Below are positions 28,939 to 44,382 of a stretch of 55,518 nt of DNA, one piece after another. The stretch comes from Desulfocapsaceae bacterium (GTDB lineage Bacteria; Desulfobacterota; Desulfobulbia; Desulfobulbales; Desulfocapsaceae): positions 1-55,518 of the forward strand of contig JASJDT010000016.1 of the NCBI GenBank assembly GCA_030065655.1, written 5' to 3'. A program made the position numbers and the translations under genes. Positions within the stretch are counted from its first letter, which is position 1. Every line of letters starts with the position of its first letter. The notes below the pieces were generated by a model. It saw nothing but the letters and a program-made list of their open reading frames with translations. It was not told the origin of the DNA and ran no database searches.

Positions 28939-29346
28939 TCAGCAGGCTTGTTTGAGAAGAGGAGAGAGGTAACTCTGCAGGTATGCACCGGAAGAGACTA
29001 TTTCTCGGAGATCTTCGCCGGTTGGTTTTTTGACGACATAAGTATCAAGGTCACAGATTTCCTGAAAGGAATCGAGAAAACGAAGCCTTTCGTCGAGTTC
29101 GTGATTGATGCCAAGGTGTCTTTCCAGGGCTCGCAGCAGGTCAACCATTGTGTGATTCTCGGCGAGATCACCGCGCTGCATAAGGAAGGCCATGATCAGC
29201 TTCTCAATACCCATGCAAGTCAGGTTGTAGATAACCTCGGGAGAAAAACCTTTACTTCTTTTGATGAATGCCGACTGGGCGGTTTTGAGAAACTGTTCGC
29301 CGTCACGTTGAAAAATATGCCAGTCGGTTATCTGAATTGTATTCAT
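28939..29346 (-). CDS. HEPN-like small protein in the nif-linked unit
   Basis: A 135-residue all-helical protein resembling HEPN domains (TDWHIFQRDGEQFLKTAQ start, then PEVIYNLTCMGIEKLIMAFL). The segment RGDLAENH matches the HEPN R-x4-6-H signature, which in some members is an RNase site. No nucleotidyltransferase (MNT) partner is adjacent. Its ATG overlaps the stop of the GNAT gene by 4 bp, so it is translated with GNAT and the ferredoxin. Role unknown; linkage to nif genes suggests nitrogenase-related regulation or assembly (inference). Confidence 0.7.
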   Translation of the reverse strand: MNTIQITDWHIFQRDGEQFLKTAQSAFIKRSKGFSPEVIYNLTCMGIEKLIMAFLMQRGDLAENHTMVDLLRALERHLGINHELDERLRFLDSFQEICDLDTYVVKKPTGEDLREIVSSGAYLQSYLSPLLKQAC

Positions 29347-29813
29347 TTTTCTCCATTTTTGAAATAGCTGCGCAGGCAGATCAATTGGGTCTGTTGCCAG
29401 CCGCTGTGGGCATAAAACCCCAAACCATCGTAATTGTTTTTATCGGCCAGAAGCTGCATACGTCTAGCGCCATGACTGAAACCCCATTTGCCGATTGCTT
29501 CCAGGAGCCTTTTGCCAACTCCCTTTCCCCGCGCCTGTTGTTGAACGTAAAGGTCCTCAATGTGCAGACTTGGGCCGCCTTCTGCCGTTGAAATGAGAAT
29601 CTGACCAGTGATCATGCCAATGACCCCTGAGTCATCTTCGGCCACTATAATGGCGGCACCAGGAGAGTTCAGCAGCAGATTAAGGCCTTGCTGCTGAAGT
29701 TCCGATGAACACTGAAAATCCTCCTCAATGGTGAAGAGATTCTTCAAAAGATTGGTCAGCTCGGCAATGTCATTTTCAACTGCCTGGCGGATAAATGAAG
29801 TTTTCACCATCAA
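29343..29813 (-). CDS. GNAT family N-acetyltransferase
   Basis: A 156-residue acetyltransferase. The acetyl-CoA motif QARGKGVGKRLLEAI, the preceding strand HIEDLYVQ, and a C-terminal YDGLGFYAHSGW are characteristic. Substrate cannot be predicted. It overlaps the ferredoxin by 4 bp upstream and the HEPN-like gene by 4 bp downstream, which indicates tight co-expression of the three. Confidence 0.88.
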   Translation of the reverse strand: MMVKTSFIRQAVENDIAELTNLLKNLFTIEEDFQCSSELQQQGLNLLLNSPGAAIIVAEDDSGVIGMITGQILISTAEGGPSLHIEDLYVQQQARGKGVGKRLLEAIGKWGFSHGARRMQLLADKNNYDGLGFYAHSGWQQTQLICLRSYFKNGEK

Positions 29814-30112
29814 CCGATCAAATATTCCTGGGGTGGTTCTCCATCTTCGAGACCATCTAGTACTGCATCGATGGCCTCTTCGCTGTCAATTCCTTTGAAC
29901 CATTGGTTCTCGGGTTGGATGACCATAATAGGACCCGCCTCGCATTGTTTCAGGCAGCCAGTGGCGACGATTTGCATATCCAAACCGCGGTCAAGAATCT
30001 CTTCTTCAATATACTGCAGGAATCCATCGGTTTGTTTATGACAGATGCCCTTTGGATCTCCTTTTACACGGAAGCTTTGACAAAGAAGGATCTGTCGTTC
30101 AGGTAATGCCAT
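29810..30112 (-). CDS. Thioredoxin-like [2Fe-2S] ferredoxin
   Basis: A 100-residue thioredoxin-fold ferredoxin with the ligand pattern Cys11, Cys24, Cys53 and Cys57 (CQSFRVKGDPKGIC, then CLKQC). Such Shethna-type ferredoxins often sit in nif clusters and may donate electrons or protect nitrogenase. It follows the NifB/NifX-like gene after 260 bp with no strong promoter visible between, so it may belong to the nif transcript or have its own. Confidence 0.88.
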   Translation of the reverse strand: MALPERQILLCQSFRVKGDPKGICHKQTDGFLQYIEEEILDRGLDMQIVATGCLKQCEAGPIMVIQPENQWFKGIDSEEAIDAVLDGLEDGEPPQEYLIG

Positions 30113-30373: not shown

Positions 30374-31525
30374 TTATTTATTGCCTTTCTTTTTGCCGCC
30401 ACCGTAAAGTACGTCGACCATGCCCTCGATATTGTCTTCAGTGATCAAGATTTTCAGTCCGGCCTGGGCAAGCTGGGAGCGAGGTTTTTCCCCGGCACTG
30501 GCAGTTAGCAAAACAAAACAATCCTTGAGGATTTCAGCGGTTTGCTGCCAGCGCAGTGGACCCGATCCCGGTTCAGGTGCTGCCCGAGTTTCTATAAGGC
30601 AGGCAAGGCCGTCCTGACGAGGGCCATAGATGAGAAACTGGATGGCATGGCCAAGGTGCAGGTCAATCTCAATACCATTGGAACTAACCACAGCGACGTT
30701 CGGCCGCTCGTTACTTGGTTTGGGAACGATACTTTCAGTTTGTTCTGCCGGGAGAGTGCGGTGCGGATGATGAAGGCGCGGCGGCACTACTGGCAAATAT
30801 TGCGAAGCCTTGGTTTTGGCATTCTTGATGGTTTCCGGAGAGGGGCTTTCCAGGTTTACCTCAGCACCGGCTTCCGGGCAATAGGGGACCAGGGAGATAC
30901 TGTCTGCGCCCAGCTCAACCATTTCACTGCTTATTTTGGCAACATGATCAATGTTGTATCCCGGATATAGGGTAGTCAGGATGCCGACGGTTACCTTGCG
31001 GAACTTCAGGGCTGAAACCCCATCACGCTGTTCCTTCAAAAGCAGAGATGCCGCATCTGCAAGTTTAAGCGTCTTGGCTCCGGGCCGTATCCAGGCAAAA
31101 AGCTTTTCAAGGATTTCAGTCCGTACTCCTTCCACCTTCACCTCCACATAGTCGATGCCCGCCTCGGCAAGATCACCAGCCAGCCTGCTGCAGCCGATAC
31201 CAAGGGTGAGCAGGCCAAGGGAAAGGTCGGGGAAACGACTTTTAACCGCTCTTGCCATTGCTAAAGTCAGCTCAGGCGTGGCCAGAGGGTCTCCTGGACC
31301 AACTATTGCCGCCATGGCAATCTTACCTTCGTTCTTCCTCATTTCTGCAGTCAACATTTCCATAGCTTCCTCGACAGGCATACATCGCTTTTTATCGGGG
31401 GGCGGTGAAAATCTGGTGCGGGCAACGAGTTGGGGGGCCACCGGCAGGTATATAATATCCTCCGGATACGGCTTGCTACAGGGGCAGGACGTTGTGCTGT
31501 TTGCCAGGGAAGCTCCGTCCATCAT
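30374..31525 (-). CDS. NifB/NifX-like protein lacking the radical-SAM cysteines
   Basis: About 383 residues. The first 250 follow the NifB radical-SAM barrel: YLPVAPQL, then IVGPGDPLATPELTLAMA, IDYVEVKVEGV, FAWIRPGAK, TLYPGYNIDHV and PYCPEAG. Where NifB has the CxxxCxxC cluster motif (just after VAP), this protein reads VAPQLVARTRF with no cysteine. The later NifB cysteine pair is replaced by PPRLHHPHRT. The last 110 residues are a NifX/Nitro_FeMo-Co binding domain (NVAVVSSNG to MVDVLYGGG). It is therefore probably a non-catalytic cofactor-binding or carrier protein. ATG 31525 is chosen for its GAGGTGG site; ATG 31552 is the alternative. It directly follows nifK. Confidence 0.8.
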   Translation of the reverse strand: MMDGASLANSTTSCPCSKPYPEDIIYLPVAPQLVARTRFSPPPDKKRCMPVEEAMEMLTAEMRKNEGKIAMAAIVGPGDPLATPELTLAMARAVKSRFPDLSLGLLTLGIGCSRLAGDLAEAGIDYVEVKVEGVRTEILEKLFAWIRPGAKTLKLADAASLLLKEQRDGVSALKFRKVTVGILTTLYPGYNIDHVAKISSEMVELGADSISLVPYCPEAGAEVNLESPSPETIKNAKTKASQYLPVVPPRLHHPHRTLPAEQTESIVPKPSNERPNVAVVSSNGIEIDLHLGHAIQFLIYGPRQDGLACLIETRAAPEPGSGPLRWQQTAEILKDCFVLLTASAGEKPRSQLAQAGLKILITEDNIEGMVDVLYGGGKKKGNK

Positions 31526-31606: not shown

Positions 31607-32980
31607 CTAGAGAACGAGTTCAAATTTCTCCTCGGGATCGTCTCGATCCTTCCGGTCGAGAAGAACTCCCAGGATCTGTTCGAGCAACCGTAGTCCGCCT
31701 TTATAGCCCACTGTGGGAAAGTGCTGGTGACCTTGCCTGTCAAGTATGGGGAAACCCCAGCGTACAAAAGGCAGATCCTCATCACGGGCAATGTACTTGC
31801 AATACGTGTTGCCGATGATGAGATCTACGGGCTCGTTTTTGATCCACTGATGGAGGAGGAACATATCGCCTGCGGCTTTGACGTTAACTTCACGGCCCAT
31901 ATCAGCGGTAATTTCCTTGATGCGTTTTTCAAATTTCTTCCCGGGTGTTCCGGTGACAATATGAACTGGACTCATGTCGATGGATACCAGAAACTCGGTC
32001 ATGGCGATGAGCTGATCGGGATCTCCAACCAGCGCTACCTTTTTGCCATATAGATATTGATGCATATCAGAAACCATATCGACGAGCTTGCCACGTTCTA
32101 TGGCTATTTCGTCGGGTACGGAAGTACCGGCGATGGTCCTCAGGGCATCGATGAATCTATCGGTTGCCTTAAGTCCAAAAGGCATATCGATAACGGAGCA
32201 GGGCACTTTGCAGGTGGTGTCGAGAAGACGTGCTGCATCCGCAGAACACCACTCTCCAAGAGCCAGGGTACCGATACCGCCGCCACTGGCCTTGATGTCT
32301 TCAATGCTGGTTCCACCATCGGGAAACATCTTATATTTTCCGGTAAGTGGACCGTCCAGTACACCGGAGGTGTCCGGAAACATGTTGATCTTGGCACCTA
32401 CCAAGCCGGCGAGTCTTTTGATCTCTTCCATGTCTGCAGGTTCAACCCAGCCTGGTATGAGATTTATCTTGCCGTTTTTCTGCTCTCCTTGTTCGGCCAT
32501 GGCCGCCATGGCTTTCACCATGTTAGAGAAGCCGGTGACATGGGAGCCAACATAGCTTGGCGTAGGTGCGCCTAAGACAGTCTTGCCTTCAGGAACCTTC
32601 TTATCCTTCTTGGCCTTGTCGAAAATCTGCGGTAGATCGTCACCGATGGTTTCGGAGAGGCAGGTGGTGTGGACCGCGACGACTTTCGGCTCGTAGACCG
32701 TAAAAATGTTGTCGATCGCTTGAACCAGATTGGCCTGGCCACCGAAGACTGAGGCACCTTCAGTAAAGGAGCTGGTTGCTGCCGAGATGGGTTCCTTGTA
32801 ATGGCGGGTCAGGGTACTGCGATGGTAGGCGCAGCAGCCCTGCGAGCCATGGCTGTGCGGCAGGCAGTCTTTGATGCCAAGAGCTGCGTACATGGCCCCG
32901 ATGGGCTGACAGGTCTTGGCTGGATTAATCATCAGAGCTTTGCGCTCGGAAATCTCTTTTGGTGTATGTCGTAATAACAT
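31607..32980 (-). CDS. nifK: Nitrogenase MoFe protein beta chain
   Basis: A 457-residue beta subunit of dinitrogenase, pairing with NifD to hold the P-cluster. P-cluster cysteines are seen at Cys24 (AKTCQPIGAMYA), Cys49/50 (GSQGCCAYHRS) and Cys107 (HTTCLSETIGDD). TPSYVGSHVTGF holds the conserved serine region. It is the short form lacking the N-terminal extension of proteobacterial NifK, as in anaerobes. AGGAAGG precedes ATG 32980. It follows nifD by 51 bp in the same operon. Confidence 0.97.
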   Translation of the reverse strand: MLLRHTPKEISERKALMINPAKTCQPIGAMYAALGIKDCLPHSHGSQGCCAYHRSTLTRHYKEPISAATSSFTEGASVFGGQANLVQAIDNIFTVYEPKVVAVHTTCLSETIGDDLPQIFDKAKKDKKVPEGKTVLGAPTPSYVGSHVTGFSNMVKAMAAMAEQGEQKNGKINLIPGWVEPADMEEIKRLAGLVGAKINMFPDTSGVLDGPLTGKYKMFPDGGTSIEDIKASGGGIGTLALGEWCSADAARLLDTTCKVPCSVIDMPFGLKATDRFIDALRTIAGTSVPDEIAIERGKLVDMVSDMHQYLYGKKVALVGDPDQLIAMTEFLVSIDMSPVHIVTGTPGKKFEKRIKEITADMGREVNVKAAGDMFLLHQWIKNEPVDLIIGNTYCKYIARDEDLPFVRWGFPILDRQGHQHFPTVGYKGGLRLLEQILGVLLDRKDRDDPEEKFELVL

Positions 32981-33031: not shown

Positions 33032-34669
33032 TTACTCCCAGACATAGGTGGCGGAAAGCTCGGGATTTTCCTGCCAAGGTGCTTTCATGAAGCTCCATAC
33101 CTTGCTGTTGACCAGTCGGTCGATTTCCTGGTAGAAATTAATTGCCCCTTGAAAGCCGGCATATGGTCCGCCCGAGTCATAGCTGTGCAGCTGCTTCATC
33201 GGCACACCCAGCTTCTGGATGGAGTATTTTTCTTTTATACCGGCACAGAAAAGATCCGGCTTCATCAGCTCTACCAGTTTTTCAGCTTCATACTGGTTGA
33301 GATCATCGATGACGATTGTGCCTTCTTCCATCATCGGATTGAGTCCTTCGTATTCCTTGAAATCAACTCCCGCTGCTTCCAGAGCGGCTATTTCTTCGTC
33401 CGTTTTCCTCGGGCGGTAAAGTTCCGGATCCGGCTCAACGTGGATCTCTTCAATGTTTCGACTGTCGGCATCGACCTTGAGATCAGGAATGACATGGCGA
33501 CCTTCGTAATCGTCCCGGTGACCGAACTCATAGCCGGCTGAGAGGGTTTTCATGCCCATCTCATTAAAAAGTTCCTGATAATGGTGAGCGCGAGAACCAC
33601 CGACGAAAAGCATGGCCGTCTTGCCTTTGGTCCTAGGATAAACATCCTCGATGGCTGCCTTCACAGCCGGCATTTCTTCGGCGATAACTTCCTCGACCCG
33701 ATCAATAAGCTCCTGATCATCGAAATATTTAGCAATCTTGCGCAATGATTTGGCTGTTGCTTCAGCGCCAATGAAATTTATTTTAATCCAGGGAATGCCA
33801 TACTTGGTCTCCAGCATGTCCGCCACGTAATTAATGGAGCGGTGGCACATGACACAACTCAAGTCAGCCTGATTTGCCGAAGCAAATTTGTCATAGGTGG
33901 CGTTACCGGAAAATGTTGAAATGTTGGTAATACCGCATTTCTCCAGGATACGGTCTATCTCGAAGCCGTCTCCACCAATGTTGTATTCACCCAGCAGATT
34001 AATCTTATATTTCTCGTTCTTTTCCGTTTCGCTGGAACCCACTATGTGAGTGAATACCTGGTTGTTGGCAATATGGTGTCCCGCAGACTGGGATACACCT
34101 TTATAACCTTCACAACTGAAAGCAAAGACATTGCAATCGCCAAATTTCTCCTTCATCTTCTTGGCAACCGCATGGATATCGTCACCGATGAGTCCTACCG
34201 GACAGGTGGCAAATACGGCTATGGCCTTGGGATGAAAAAGATCATATGCTTCCTGAATGGCTGCCTCGAGCTTTTTCTCACCGCCAAAAATGATGTCGGA
34301 GTCCTGCATATCCGTGGACATACAGTAGCTCAGGTAGTTGGAGTCTGAATCATTAATACCGTCGGTCTGGTTTCTCCTGGTCAGCCAGGCGTAAAAACTG
34401 CAGCCGATCGGGCCGTGCACGAGATTGACGATATCGCTGGTCGGCCCCATAATAACCCCCTTGCAACCGGCATAGGTGCAGCCGCGCATGGTGATTATTC
34501 CAGGTATTGTTCTAACATTGGCAACTATCTCCGGAGTGGTATTCTCCTGGGCTTCGTTGATCATTATCTGTTTGGCGCGCTTGCGGGCAACTTTTGGAGG
34601 ATATTTTTCCAGCAGTTTTTCCTTGACGTTGTGGGGATCCCACTGCACCAGCTTATGTGCTTTTCCCAT
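33032..34669 (-). CDS. nifD: Nitrogenase MoFe protein alpha chain
   Basis: A 545-residue alpha subunit. P-cluster ligands: Cys64 (RGCTYAGCKGV), Cys90 (HGPIGCSFYAW) and Cys156 (ATCPVGLIGDD). FeMo-cofactor ligands: Cys275 (CVMCHRSINY) and His495 (QLHSYDSGGPY). The substrate-site residues Gln194 and His198 sit in GVSQSAGHHIAN. An insertion of roughly 50 residues around 400-455 is the kind found in the clostridial-type group. With no anfG/vnfG gene and intact Mo-type signatures, this is a molybdenum nitrogenase. GAGAGG precedes ATG 34669. Confidence 0.97.
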   Translation of the reverse strand: MGKAHKLVQWDPHNVKEKLLEKYPPKVARKRAKQIMINEAQENTTPEIVANVRTIPGIITMRGCTYAGCKGVIMGPTSDIVNLVHGPIGCSFYAWLTRRNQTDGINDSDSNYLSYCMSTDMQDSDIIFGGEKKLEAAIQEAYDLFHPKAIAVFATCPVGLIGDDIHAVAKKMKEKFGDCNVFAFSCEGYKGVSQSAGHHIANNQVFTHIVGSSETEKNEKYKINLLGEYNIGGDGFEIDRILEKCGITNISTFSGNATYDKFASANQADLSCVMCHRSINYVADMLETKYGIPWIKINFIGAEATAKSLRKIAKYFDDQELIDRVEEVIAEEMPAVKAAIEDVYPRTKGKTAMLFVGGSRAHHYQELFNEMGMKTLSAGYEFGHRDDYEGRHVIPDLKVDADSRNIEEIHVEPDPELYRPRKTDEEIAALEAAGVDFKEYEGLNPMMEEGTIVIDDLNQYEAEKLVELMKPDLFCAGIKEKYSIQKLGVPMKQLHSYDSGGPYAGFQGAINFYQEIDRLVNSKVWSFMKAPWQENPELSATYVWE

Positions 34670-34745: not shown

Positions 34746-35120
34746 TTAACCAATTGATGCTGCGCCAGTTTCGCCGGTGCGAACCCGTACGGCGTCTGCC
34801 ATCGGCATGACGAATATTTTACCATCACCGGGCTTGCCGGTTTTGTTGGTTTCCACGATGGTTTCCACAACCTTGTCAACCTCGTCGTCCTCGACGACCA
34901 CGGTGACCATACGCTTGGGGTAGAGTTTTCCTTTTTCGCCAAGCAGTACAGCTGCTTCTTCAAAGCCTTCTTCTGCACCTTCTATCAGCTTTCGATTTAC
35001 GAAGCCCATGCCTCTGCCCTGAGCCTCATGGGCAAAGAAAGCGTCTACACCGGCCGCAGTGAGGGCTGCTTTGGTTTTGTTCATCATGTTCATGCGGACA
35101 ACTGCGATTACTTCTTTCAT
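34746..35120 (-). CDS. nifI2: PII-like nitrogenase regulator NifI2
   Basis: A 124-residue PII-family protein (VIAVVRMNMMNKTKAALTAAGV start, GDGKIFVMPMADAVRVRTGE end). In methanogens NifI1 and NifI2 form a complex that binds and inhibits NifDK when fixed nitrogen is plentiful, relieved by 2-oxoglutarate. Its ATG overlaps the nifI1 stop by 4 bp and it lies between nifH and nifD, the defining position. Confidence 0.95.
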   Translation of the reverse strand: MKEVIAVVRMNMMNKTKAALTAAGVDAFFAHEAQGRGMGFVNRKLIEGAEEGFEEAAVLLGEKGKLYPKRMVTVVVEDDEVDKVVETIVETNKTGKPGDGKIFVMPMADAVRVRTGETGAASIG

Positions 35121-35470
35121 GCCGCTTCCTCCTCTGCTACGGCGTCTTCTTTGACTCCGGAGCTGATGGTGTAGACATCTTCAACGTCGGCGACAAAAAT
35201 CTTACCGTCGCCAAACGCACCCTTTGTTCCGGAGCGGGCAGCGTCCATGATGGTATTGATGACGAAATCTTTGTCTTCTTTCTTGACGACGCTCATCAGC
35301 ATGGTTTTGGGAATTTCGTCGTAGGTCACTTCGCCGATTTTGATTCCACGCTGCTTGCCGCGACCGGTAACGGAATATTTGGTTACTGCCGGAAAACCCG
35401 CATCCATGAGGGCGGCGAGGACGTCGTCAGCTTTTTCGGGTCGTACGATGGCTCTTATCATGATCATCAT
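35117..35470 (-). CDS. nifI1: PII-like nitrogenase regulator NifI1
   Basis: A 117-residue PII-family protein (MIMIRAIVRPEKADDVLAAL start, GAFGDGKIFVADVEDVYTI near the end, then an acidic Ala/Glu tail). Partner of NifI2 in post-translational control of dinitrogenase. ATG 35470 with AGGAG 10 nt upstream; it follows nifH by 31 bp. Confidence 0.95.
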   Translation of the reverse strand: MMIMIRAIVRPEKADDVLAALMDAGFPAVTKYSVTGRGKQRGIKIGEVTYDEIPKTMLMSVVKKEDKDFVINTIMDAARSGTKGAFGDGKIFVADVEDVYTISSGVKEDAVAEEEAA

Positions 35471-35501: not shown

Positions 35502-36338
<837 letters not shown>

Positions 36339-36429: not shown

Positions 36430-36446
36430 AGCAAGGGCTATGCCAA
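36430..36446 (-). promoter_or_regulatory. Sigma-54 promoter of nifH
   Basis: Reading on the minus strand, TTGGCATAGCCCTTGCT matches the -24/-12 consensus YTGGCAYRNNNNTTGCW at every position. The start site would fall near 36419, leaving a leader of about 90 nt before nifH. Confidence 0.9.
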
Positions 36447-36515
36447 AAGCAACCTGTTGTTAAATACACATGAAAAACAATATGTTAAGGTGTTTTTTTT
36501 CTGTTGAATAAGAAC

Positions 36516-36740: not shown

Positions 36741-36757
36741 ATGGCATGGCAATTGCT
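36741..36757 (+). promoter_or_regulatory. Sigma-54 promoter of nifA
   Basis: ATGGCATGGCAATTGCT fits the -24/-12 consensus except for the first base. Predicted start near 36768, which places the nifA ATG at 36822 about 54 nt downstream and argues against the earlier in-frame ATG 36780. nifA expression is thus itself sigma-54 dependent. Confidence 0.8.
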
Positions 36758-40937: not shown

Positions 40938-42095
40938 ATGCACAAACCTGTTTATCTGGATTATAACGGTACCACTCCGCATGCTCCTGAAGTTATTCAA
41001 GCCATGCTTCCCTTCCTGGAATCAGAGTTTGGCAATCCCTCAAGCAGCCACTGGTACGGGGAAGCTCCTAAAAAAGCGGTGCAGGCTACCCGTCACCAGG
41101 ATTCTGGTTTGCTGGGATGTTCCGCCTCCGAGATACTCTTTACCAGCGGTGGTACCGAGTCAAATAACCATGCCATCAAAAGCATTGCCGGAGCCCGCTA
41201 CGGCAGCGGCAATCACCTTATTACCTCGAGCATTGAACACCCGGCCATCATTGAGGTGTGTCGTTTTATGGAAGGCCACGGATTTGAAGTTACCTATCTG
41301 CCAGTTGATAATTTCGGTCTGGTCAATCCTGCTGACGTGGCTGCTGCGATCAGACCCGAAACGATCATGATATCGGTCATGCATGCCAACAACGAAGTGG
41401 GCACTATTCAACCCATTGCAGAAATCGCGGCTCTGGCCAGGCGCCACGGAATATTGATGCATAGCGATGCAGCTCAAACCGCAGGCAAGATTCCCACCCA
41501 GGTGGACGATCTTAAAGTGGATCTGCTTACCTTGGCCGGCCATAAACTTTATGCTCCCAAAGGTGTTGGGGCTCTGTTTATCCGTGATGATGTCGATAAT
41601 CAAATTTTCTGTCATGGAGCCGGCCAGGAGAGCGGTCGGCGGGCAGGAACTGAGAATGTTCTGGAAATAGTGGGGCTGGGTAAGGCCTGTGAACTTGCTG
41701 CAGAAGGTATCGATCATCATGGTGAACATATGCAGGAGATGCGCGACCGCCTGGAGGAGGGCTTGGCTGCAAATCTTGATGATCTCTACTTTAACGGCCA
41801 CCGGCAGCTCCGCCTGCCCAATACCTCCAGCATTTCCTTTCTGGGTCTGGACGCAGACCGTCTGCTTGAGGAAATTGGCGCAAAGATCGCCGCCTCGGCT
41901 GGTGCTGCCTGTCATGCCGATCAGGTAGAAATCTCCCATGTGCTGAAGGCTATGGAGGTTCCGGAGCAATGGGCCAGGGGTACTCTGCGATTTTCCACGG
42001 GCAGGTACACCACAGCTGAGGAGATTGACCTCGCCCTTGAGGTGATTATTGAATCGGTAAAACGGCTGCGGAGTAAGGGTGATGCTGCCGCTTAA
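40938..42095 (+). CDS. nifS: Cysteine desulfurase, NifS/IscS type
   Basis: A 385-residue PLP enzyme releasing sulfur from cysteine for Fe-S cluster assembly. PLP Lys203 sits in LAGHKLYAPKG; the catalytic loop Cys325 in SAGAACHADQV; SGGTESNNHAI and MHANNEVGTIQP are family signatures. ATG 40938 is chosen because GAGAGG lies upstream and family members begin here; a longer frame from 40842 has none. A nifS role is inferred from the position among amtB-glnK, nifV and the nif operon; iscS or sufS-type housekeeping function cannot be excluded. Confidence 0.88.
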   Translation: MHKPVYLDYNGTTPHAPEVIQAMLPFLESEFGNPSSSHWYGEAPKKAVQATRHQDSGLLGCSASEILFTSGGTESNNHAIKSIAGARYGSGNHLITSSIEHPAIIEVCRFMEGHGFEVTYLPVDNFGLVNPADVAAAIRPETIMISVMHANNEVGTIQPIAEIAALARRHGILMHSDAAQTAGKIPTQVDDLKVDLLTLAGHKLYAPKGVGALFIRDDVDNQIFCHGAGQESGRRAGTENVLEIVGLGKACELAAEGIDHHGEHMQEMRDRLEEGLAANLDDLYFNGHRQLRLPNTSSISFLGLDADRLLEEIGAKIAASAGAACHADQVEISHVLKAMEVPEQWARGTLRFSTGRYTTAEEIDLALEVIIESVKRLRSKGDAAA

Positions 42096-43161
42096 CGTAC
42101 CATTTCTGCCGGAAGAATCGTATATCCACTCTCTGCGAGAGTTGGAATCGCAGATTAATAGTGTACACTTCAGTCTTTATTCTTCCAGCTTGAGTGATGC
42201 CAGGGTGCAATTAGAGCAGATCTCTCTTGATTCATTAATCGAACAACTGCTCAAGCTTCCCCGTCCGAAAAAATATCTGTTAGCCAATGGCCTGATCCAG
42301 ACAAAAGAGACCTATACCGCCAATGAGAGGCTCCAACAGTTGATCGGTCAATTGGAGAGGCTGATTGATGCGGATGTGCTGGATGGTCTGATTTTTGGAG
42401 ACAGTTATCTGCTCACCGTCCTGGGCGATATTTCACCAACCTTGGCTGGCAAGATAGAGGCGGTACCCAGCATCAACTTTACCATCGACAATCCCGGCAA
42501 ACTGAATTCTCTTATGGACCTTATCACCAGCTGTGATTTTCGATTGCCCACCAAAATTGCCCTTGACCGCAGCCTGAACAGGCAGCCTGCTGACCTGGTG
42601 GTGCTCTCAAAAGAGATCAGGCGCCGCTGGCCGGGGGTGAAAATCGAGTTGTTGGCCAACGAGGGCTGTCTCAGCCATTGTCCTTACCGGTCGACCCATG
42701 AGGCCTTCATTGCCTTAGCGAACAGCGCAGCAGGGGCAGATGGAGGAGTCGACACCTACAAGCTTAACAAGGAGCTGGCCTGTCAGCGCCATTTTCAGGA
42801 GAATCCCCAGCGCATTCTAGCCTCTCCCTTCATCCGTCCCGAAGATGTACAATGCTATGAGGAAACGGCTGATATCATCAAGCTCTGTGGACGCACTCTT
42901 GGTCCGGCTTTTCTCGAGAAGGTCGTGCATGCCTACGCTCGTGGTAAATATGAGGGAAATATGCTCGAACTGCTCGATGCCTCCCATTGGCTTTCCCAGT
43001 GCTACCATCTTGCCAATGAAGATTTTCCCGAAGAGTTTTTCACTCGGCTCTCAGCCTGTGATCTGGACTGTCATAGCTGTGATTATTGTACAACTCTCTT
43101 CCAGCGCATCGCCCAGAAGAAAAAACTGCAACTTATCGATTACCGCCGCTCCACTTGTTAA
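42082..43161 (+). CDS. Cys-rich U32-like protein next to nifS
   Basis: About 359 residues. It starts inside the last codons of the desulfurase gene (14-bp overlap), so the two are co-translated. The barrel-like sequence has PSINFTIDNPGKLN, then KIALDRSLNR, then KIELLANEGCLSHCPYRST, recalling the U32 family (UbiU/UbiV/TrhP type) whose conserved cysteines hold a [4Fe-4S] cluster. The C-terminus has SACDLDCHSCDYC, a second Cys cluster. This suggests an Fe-S protein supplied by the adjacent desulfurase. Actual reaction unknown; the U32 link is tentative. Confidence 0.7.
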   Translation: MLPLNVPFLPEESYIHSLRELESQINSVHFSLYSSSLSDARVQLEQISLDSLIEQLLKLPRPKKYLLANGLIQTKETYTANERLQQLIGQLERLIDADVLDGLIFGDSYLLTVLGDISPTLAGKIEAVPSINFTIDNPGKLNSLMDLITSCDFRLPTKIALDRSLNRQPADLVVLSKEIRRRWPGVKIELLANEGCLSHCPYRSTHEAFIALANSAAGADGGVDTYKLNKELACQRHFQENPQRILASPFIRPEDVQCYEETADIIKLCGRTLGPAFLEKVVHAYARGKYEGNMLELLDASHWLSQCYHLANEDFPEEFFTRLSACDLDCHSCDYCTTLFQRIAQKKKLQLIDYRRSTC

Positions 43162-44365: not shown

Positions 44366-44382
44366 TGCAAGTTTGATGCCAT
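44366..44382 (-). promoter_or_regulatory. Sigma-54 promoter of nifV
   Basis: On the minus strand ATGGCATCAAACTTGCA keeps both core GG (-24) and GC (-12) with the right spacing. Predicted start near 44355 gives a short leader of about 15 nt. I found no TGT-N10-ACA site within 200 bp upstream. The rest of 44383-44654 holds only a short palindrome (TTCGTC-AAAAGC-GACGAA at 44491-44508). Confidence 0.75.

Follow-up and report, generated by a model that had tools for sequence, protein, structure and literature searches.

What is known of the route by which FeMo-co passes from NifEN to NifDK comes mainly from Azotobacter, and to our knowledge no NafY has been described for most anaerobic diazotrophs. 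NifB (TIGR01290), the two-domain bacterial radical-SAM FeMo-cofactor maturase, has a barrel followed by a NifX domain. NafY, the apodinitrogenase gamma subunit, binds the cofactor through H121 and delivers FeMo-co (PMC8496260), and both NafY and NifY bind MoFe protein that lacks FeMo-co (PMC6016461). NifX carries NifB-co by H35, and NifY is without the cofactor His (PMC13128457). Arragain et al. (2017) excluded 28% of putative NifBs, all with a NifX domain and most lacking the Cx3Cx2C motif, which in their view were misannotated NifX (PMC5715403).

Here we describe a NifB relative, referred to as pseudo-NifB, encoded in a nifHDK operon of a Desulfocapsaceae bacterium. The window, meaning the whole stretch of DNA analyzed (55,518 nucleotides), contains the following features around it.

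28939..29346, minus strand: HEPN-like protein, conserved operon member (PF05168, 15.8 bits, under the cut-off)
29343..29813, minus strand: GNAT acetyltransferase, conserved operon member (PF00583, 59.1 bits)
29810..30112, minus strand: thioredoxin-like 2Fe-2S ferredoxin (NF041612, 52 bits, under the cut-off)
30374..31525, minus strand: pseudo-NifB gene, 383 aa; barrel of NifB type lacking cluster ligands, then a C-terminal NifX domain
30377..30721, minus strand: NifX/NafY-type C-terminal domain and tail of pseudo-NifB (PF02579, 38.9 bits; match to NafY 1p90; domain model)
30777..31462, minus strand: degenerate radical-SAM barrel of pseudo-NifB, about residues 22-250 (alignment and fold match; GPGDP kept, Fe-S ligands all lost)
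31607..32980, minus strand: nifK (TIGR01286, 450.7 bits, above the cut-off)
33032..34669, minus strand: nifD (TIGR01282, 676.8 bits, above the cut-off)
34746..35120, minus strand: nifI2, PII-like (PII-family matches and conserved order)
35117..35470, minus strand: nifI1, PII-like (PII-family matches and conserved order)
35502..36329, minus strand: nifH (TIGR01287, 438.1 bits, above the cut-off)
36431..36445, minus strand: sigma-54-like -24/-12 site upstream of nifH (TGGCATAGCCCTTGC, one mismatch)

The pseudo-NifB reading frame runs uninterrupted from an ATG at 31525 to a stop ending at 30374; its start lies 81 bases past the nifK stop, directly behind nifK as the preliminary description had it. 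At the profile level, the homology to NifB exceeds chance (TIGR01290, E 6.8e-33, 114 bits), with the NCBIfam cut-off of 343.65 not reached, and the Radical_SAM profile PF04055 gives 23.8 bits, under its cut-off of 29.5. The NifX domain, described earlier as retained, is indeed present: its PF02579 (NifX/Nitro_FeMo-Co) score lies above the curated cut-off of 26.3, which rules out a chance NifX-like ORF, and the same profile matched 48/48 members of the pseudo-NifB alignment at E up to 0.01.

Alignment of 76 pseudo-NifB orthologues with 43 canonical NifBs bore out the claim that the CxxxCxxC motif and the later Cys pair are gone. The former (C34/C38/C41 in NifB) reads L33/T37/S40 in the window protein and the latter (C261/C264) R250/H253; NifB H12, C47, C114, C222 and C283 are likewise absent. 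Among the 76 orthologues, identity is 0-5% for the three Cys of CxxxCxxC and 0% for the HPC His (the HPC motif is absent from the window protein); it is 0-1% at C114, C222, C261 and C264, the Cx2CRxDAxG pair included, and 0% at the second T of TxTxN. The C47-ExRP stretch is deleted, with the ExRP segment missing in 76/76 orthologues, and N118, T140 and N193, which are near-invariant in NifB, have been lost. A text search for CxxxCxxC anywhere in the protein found it in 0/128 pseudo-NifB orthologues versus 64/65 NifBs, the odd one out being truncated. Of the six motifs that served Arragain et al. (PMC5715403) as the NifB fingerprint, only the GPG (AGPG/GPGD) motif is retained, as GPGDP at residues 76-80 of the window protein; its G, P, G and D are conserved at 100, 97, 100 and 99% in the orthologues. 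The HPCF motif of NifB persists only in five basal pseudo-NifBs (L280, L184, L192, L200 and L214, from Pseudodesulfovibrio, Desulfovibrionaceae and relatives), and several basal members have a Cys within an LCL(T/A)T stretch near the position of NifB C114. These remnants record a stepwise loss of ligands, the radical-SAM cluster going first, in the common ancestor.

The residues of the NifX domain had a different fate. H290 aligns with NifB H314, and it is invariant in the 76 aligned orthologues together with R314, R325, W326, D335 and C336 (100% each). Two residues ahead of H290, D288 is as in NafY and NifX, whereas NifB has N. In a tree of 180 proteins, built with a quick search and with some long branches flagged, 119 orthologues formed one side of a branch with an SH-aLRT of 100, apart from all NifBs, including those of rhizobia and Serratia. 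With the TIGR01290 match and the barrel fold, this single clade bears out the descent from NifB that had been proposed. Median pairwise dN/dS (NG86 script; 35 pairs, non-independent because of shared sequences) was 0.18 for pseudo-NifB overall, 0.22 for its barrel and 0.081 for its NifX domain, compared with 0.082 for the barrel and 0.077 for the NifX domain of canonical NifB. By this measure, the NifX domain is as constrained as that of NifB, and the barrel, which evolves 2.7 times faster than its NifB counterpart, is relaxed but still under purifying selection.

An AlphaFold2 model built on 48 orthologues (pLDDT 90.8, pTM 0.83) placed the predicted barrel on that of MthNifB 7jma with a Z of 29.3 and 1.4 Å over 214 residues (residues 23-248, 28% identity). 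The NifX domain modelled alone (pLDDT 82.1) gave Z scores of 12.1 to the NafY core 1p90 and 11.6 to NifX 9ian, which amounts to a tie. By sequence, the best match of the window's domain among solved structures was the NafY core 1p90 (E 4.8e-5), with NifX at E 0.46, whereas the NifX domain of the same genome's NifB found neither NafY nor NifX in this search. H290 aligns with NafY H121 and C336 with NafY C166, a register checked by C125 and C166, the two NafY Cys named in PMC8496260. The NafY match of the window's domain, not shared by that of NifB, raised the question of a domain swap with NafY, a scenario rejected by the domain tree and by cross-profile scores (91-98 bits median), both of which group the domain with NifB's own. 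At most, therefore, the likeness to NafY reflects convergence driven by a common task; the preference for NafY over NifX is modest, profile scores being mixed. The domain is also more acidic than that of NifB, with a median net charge of -5 versus -1.

Pseudo-NifB thus shares with NifB the barrel fold, the barrel-then-NifX order, the GPGD motif and the His, Arg, Trp and Cys of the NifX domain, but it is without Cx3Cx2C, the HPC His, ExRP, TxTxN and Cx2CRxDAxG and scores far under the family cut-off; its gene lies behind nifK and not nifEN, and it coexists with a true NifB. With NafY it shares the C-terminal fold, the His in register with H121 and the layout of a carrier domain plus another module, and it is probably also expressed with NifDK, as predicted from its operon position. 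However, its N-terminal module is a NifB-type barrel of NifB descent and not the apo-NifDK-binding N-terminal domain of NafY. NifX, NifY and VnfX share the NifX fold with pseudo-NifB, whose His corresponds to NifX H35, but they are single-domain proteins or have another type of N-terminal domain, and a radical-SAM barrel is absent. A NifX-family gene follows nifK-nifT on a Serratia nif plasmid. The family is probably among the sequences discarded by Arragain et al. (PMC5715403): like pseudo-NifB, these were annotated as NifB, lacked Cx3Cx2C and had a NifX domain. Those authors took the motif-less proteins for NifX, whereas pseudo-NifB has a demonstrable barrel in its predicted fold. Text searches of the literature, of incomplete coverage, found no description of the family.

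The search for a canonical nifB elsewhere in the genome, proposed earlier as a check, was successful; the assembly is 84.5% complete and in 286 contigs. A gene for a 425-aa NifB with an intact CxxxCxxC (VAPKCNIKCNFC) directly follows nifE-nifN on another contig (G000:C79), which rules out that pseudo-NifB stands in for a missing NifB. Directly behind nifE-nifN-nifB on this contig (L097, 11115-12548), we also observed a gene for a hemerythrin-type protein (PF01814) and after it one for an encapsulin (PF04454), a nanocompartment whose cargo likely handles iron or oxygen, beside the cofactor-assembly genes. Among 144 relatives, 77 genomes encode a pseudo-NifB orthologue (E below 1e-55); 76 of these also show another, weaker match of NifB type, and in the remaining one, G031, a contig stops inside nifN. 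In seven more genomes of the order, NifB and nifK are present without an orthologue. Pseudo-NifB is therefore found in 77/84 nif-bearing genomes of its order, the rest being taken as nif-less after a nifK test of ten, in which only G033 matched, through its nifN and nifE. The family recurs in a few other groups across the phylum, Desulfarculaceae and some Desulfovibrionaceae among them; its named hosts are Desulfobulbales, including the cable bacteria Electrothrix and Electronema, Desulfarculaceae, Pseudodesulfovibrio and Humidesulfovibrio. At least four genomes (G088, G089, G102 and G119) encode a standalone NifX alongside pseudo-NifB, and a replacement of NifX is not supported. In the nif-bearing genomes G091, G113, G096 and G110, the pseudo-NifB gene is missing and the ferredoxin gene directly follows nifK, and on Nitratidesulfovibrio vulgaris plasmids nifK is likewise followed by the ferredoxin gene, with no pseudo-NifB gene. 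Given these absences, nitrogenase maturation does not in general require pseudo-NifB, which is an accessory factor.

Where the gene is present, its surroundings are highly conserved. In the main set, nifK lies upstream on the same strand in 74/77 loci (74/74 where the contig reaches) and the 2Fe-2S ferredoxin gene is next downstream in 74/77, contig ends accounting for the other three in both cases. The GNAT and HEPN-like genes usually come after the ferredoxin gene; most relatives keep this pair (28939-29813, minus strand, in the window) within their nifHDK operon, sometimes in swapped order, and we know of no nitrogenase role for either member. In the named set, 75/80 loci are behind nifK and one further locus is truncated by the end of its contig; the four without nifK at the locus belong to Electronema, Electrothrix aarhusensis and one Desulfobulbaceae MAG, whose genomes have nifK elsewhere. 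Pseudo-NifB has thus moved away from nifK in some cable bacteria yet has been kept, and all five such genomes tested have nifK. In two cable-bacterial loci (L230, 7980-10328; L244, 7977-10416), a pseudo-nifB-ferredoxin-GNAT-HEPN-like block lies away from nifHDK, near amtB and glnK.

The sigma-54-like site at 36431-36445 is likely the promoter candidate of the operon, judging from its motif and place, a weak indication on its own: eight such sites were seen in the window versus 4.2 expected, which is not a significant over-representation. No sigma-54-like site was seen between nifK and the pseudo-NifB gene, and this, with the site before nifH, is consistent with the predicted co-transcription. 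Further sigma-54-like sites lie upstream of nifA (36742-36756, plus strand) and nifV (44367-44381, minus strand), and NifA-type TGT-N10-ACA sites occur at 36455 and 36516, a pattern not significantly over-represented across the window. Between nifS and nifV, a 360-aa ORF (42079-43161, plus strand) has a Cys-rich C-terminus (CDLDCHSCDYC) and no Pfam match at E 0.01.

Of the possible roles, the one best supported is that pseudo-NifB, its radical-SAM scaffold dead, would carry a cofactor in the manner of NafY and NifX or act as a chaperone for NifDK maturation; we give this a probability of about 0.52. This catalytically dead NifB paralogue would be made together with NifHDK, would hold a nitrogenase cofactor or precursor on the invariant H290 of its NifX domain, and, like NafY in Azotobacter, would help apo-NifDK to mature; what was once a radical-SAM barrel may serve as a docking or prop module, the counterpart of the unrelated N-terminal domain of NafY. 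This reading is favored by the place in the nifHDK operon, the invariant His, the NifX domain being the most constrained part and the predicted fold being nearest to NafY and NifX. It is also favored by the retention of the gene away from nifK in cable bacteria, by D288 and by the NafY match. The acidic NifX domain counts against it, since NifX is reported to bind its cofactor in a positive pocket. We infer that a cofactor is bound, that the partner is NifDK and that the cargo is FeMo-co, not NifB-co; for contact with NifDK, gene order is the pointer. The step served may be the transfer of FeMo-co to NifDK, but also that of NifB-co to NifEN, or else a regulation of NifB. The preliminary description had proposed a carrier or chaperone for NifDK and called it a new role in FeMo-co delivery. 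The first part stands as the reading best supported by operon, invariant His, constraint and fold, but the second was too strong, because FeMo-co delivery by NafY is known: what would be new is the protein that delivers the cofactor.

Less probable is that pseudo-NifB carries the precursor NifB-co, or is a partner of NifB or NifEN, and like NifX buffers or hands over NifB-co upstream of FeMo-co completion. The cofactor His is common to NifX, the domain Z score to NifX is tied with that to NafY, the NifX domain descends from NifB's own, and the barrel could pair with NifB. However, the gene belongs to nifHDK and not nifENB, often lies on another stretch than nifB, and in some genomes a separate NifX-like gene sits beside nifB. 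We consider it rather unlikely that pseudo-NifB regulates nitrogenase or is its partner in electron transfer, acting with the ferredoxin, GNAT, HEPN-like or NifI1/NifI2 proteins and sensing free cofactor through its NifX domain. Such a role would fit the joint movement of the four-gene block, even to the vicinity of amtB/glnK in cable bacteria, but the ferredoxin gene remains behind nifK where pseudo-NifB is lost, which makes the two separable, and it is the cofactor-binding domain that bears most of the constraint.

The faster evolution of the barrel and the clean loss of the gene in some lineages could also be expected of a purely structural remnant that has lost cofactor binding and, to weak benefit, stabilizes NifDK or NifB; this is very unlikely, as the low dN/dS of the NifX domain (0.08) and the invariant ligand His argue for retained binding. 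The chances are slimmer still that pseudo-NifB remains a radical-SAM enzyme with its cluster on non-canonical ligands. GPGD is almost invariant, and 57% of the aligned orthologues have a Cys near the N-terminus at the position of the HPC Cys, but the barrel has no conserved trio of Cys: the only conserved Cys of the family, C309 (91%) and C336, sit in the NifX domain. In addition, N118, T140 and N193 are lost, and residues 1-17, including C14 and C16, are modelled with a pLDDT under 50. Finally, a decaying nifB pseudogene, which the loss of catalytic residues might suggest, or a sequencing error is refuted by the intact ORF, 76 full-length main-set orthologues and an overall dN/dS of 0.18, in line with the earlier view that this is not decay.

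From an evolutionary perspective, the odds are about even that a radical-SAM scaffold was turned once into a dedicated cofactor escort and NifDK chaperone and fixed in the nifHDK operon of many diazotrophic sulfate reducers and cable bacteria, a NafY equivalent of independent origin that arose from a cofactor-making enzyme. For annotation, pseudo-NifB can pass as "radical SAM" or "NifB", and where diazotroph surveys rely on NifB as their marker, counting it would produce false nifB calls. Pseudo-NifB is also a possible part for nitrogenase engineering. Because sulfate reducers that can be cultivated (Desulfogranum, Desulfofustis, Desulfopila and Pseudodesulfovibrio) have this conserved candidate carrier linked to NifHDK, the FeMo-co transfer step becomes testable in these organisms.
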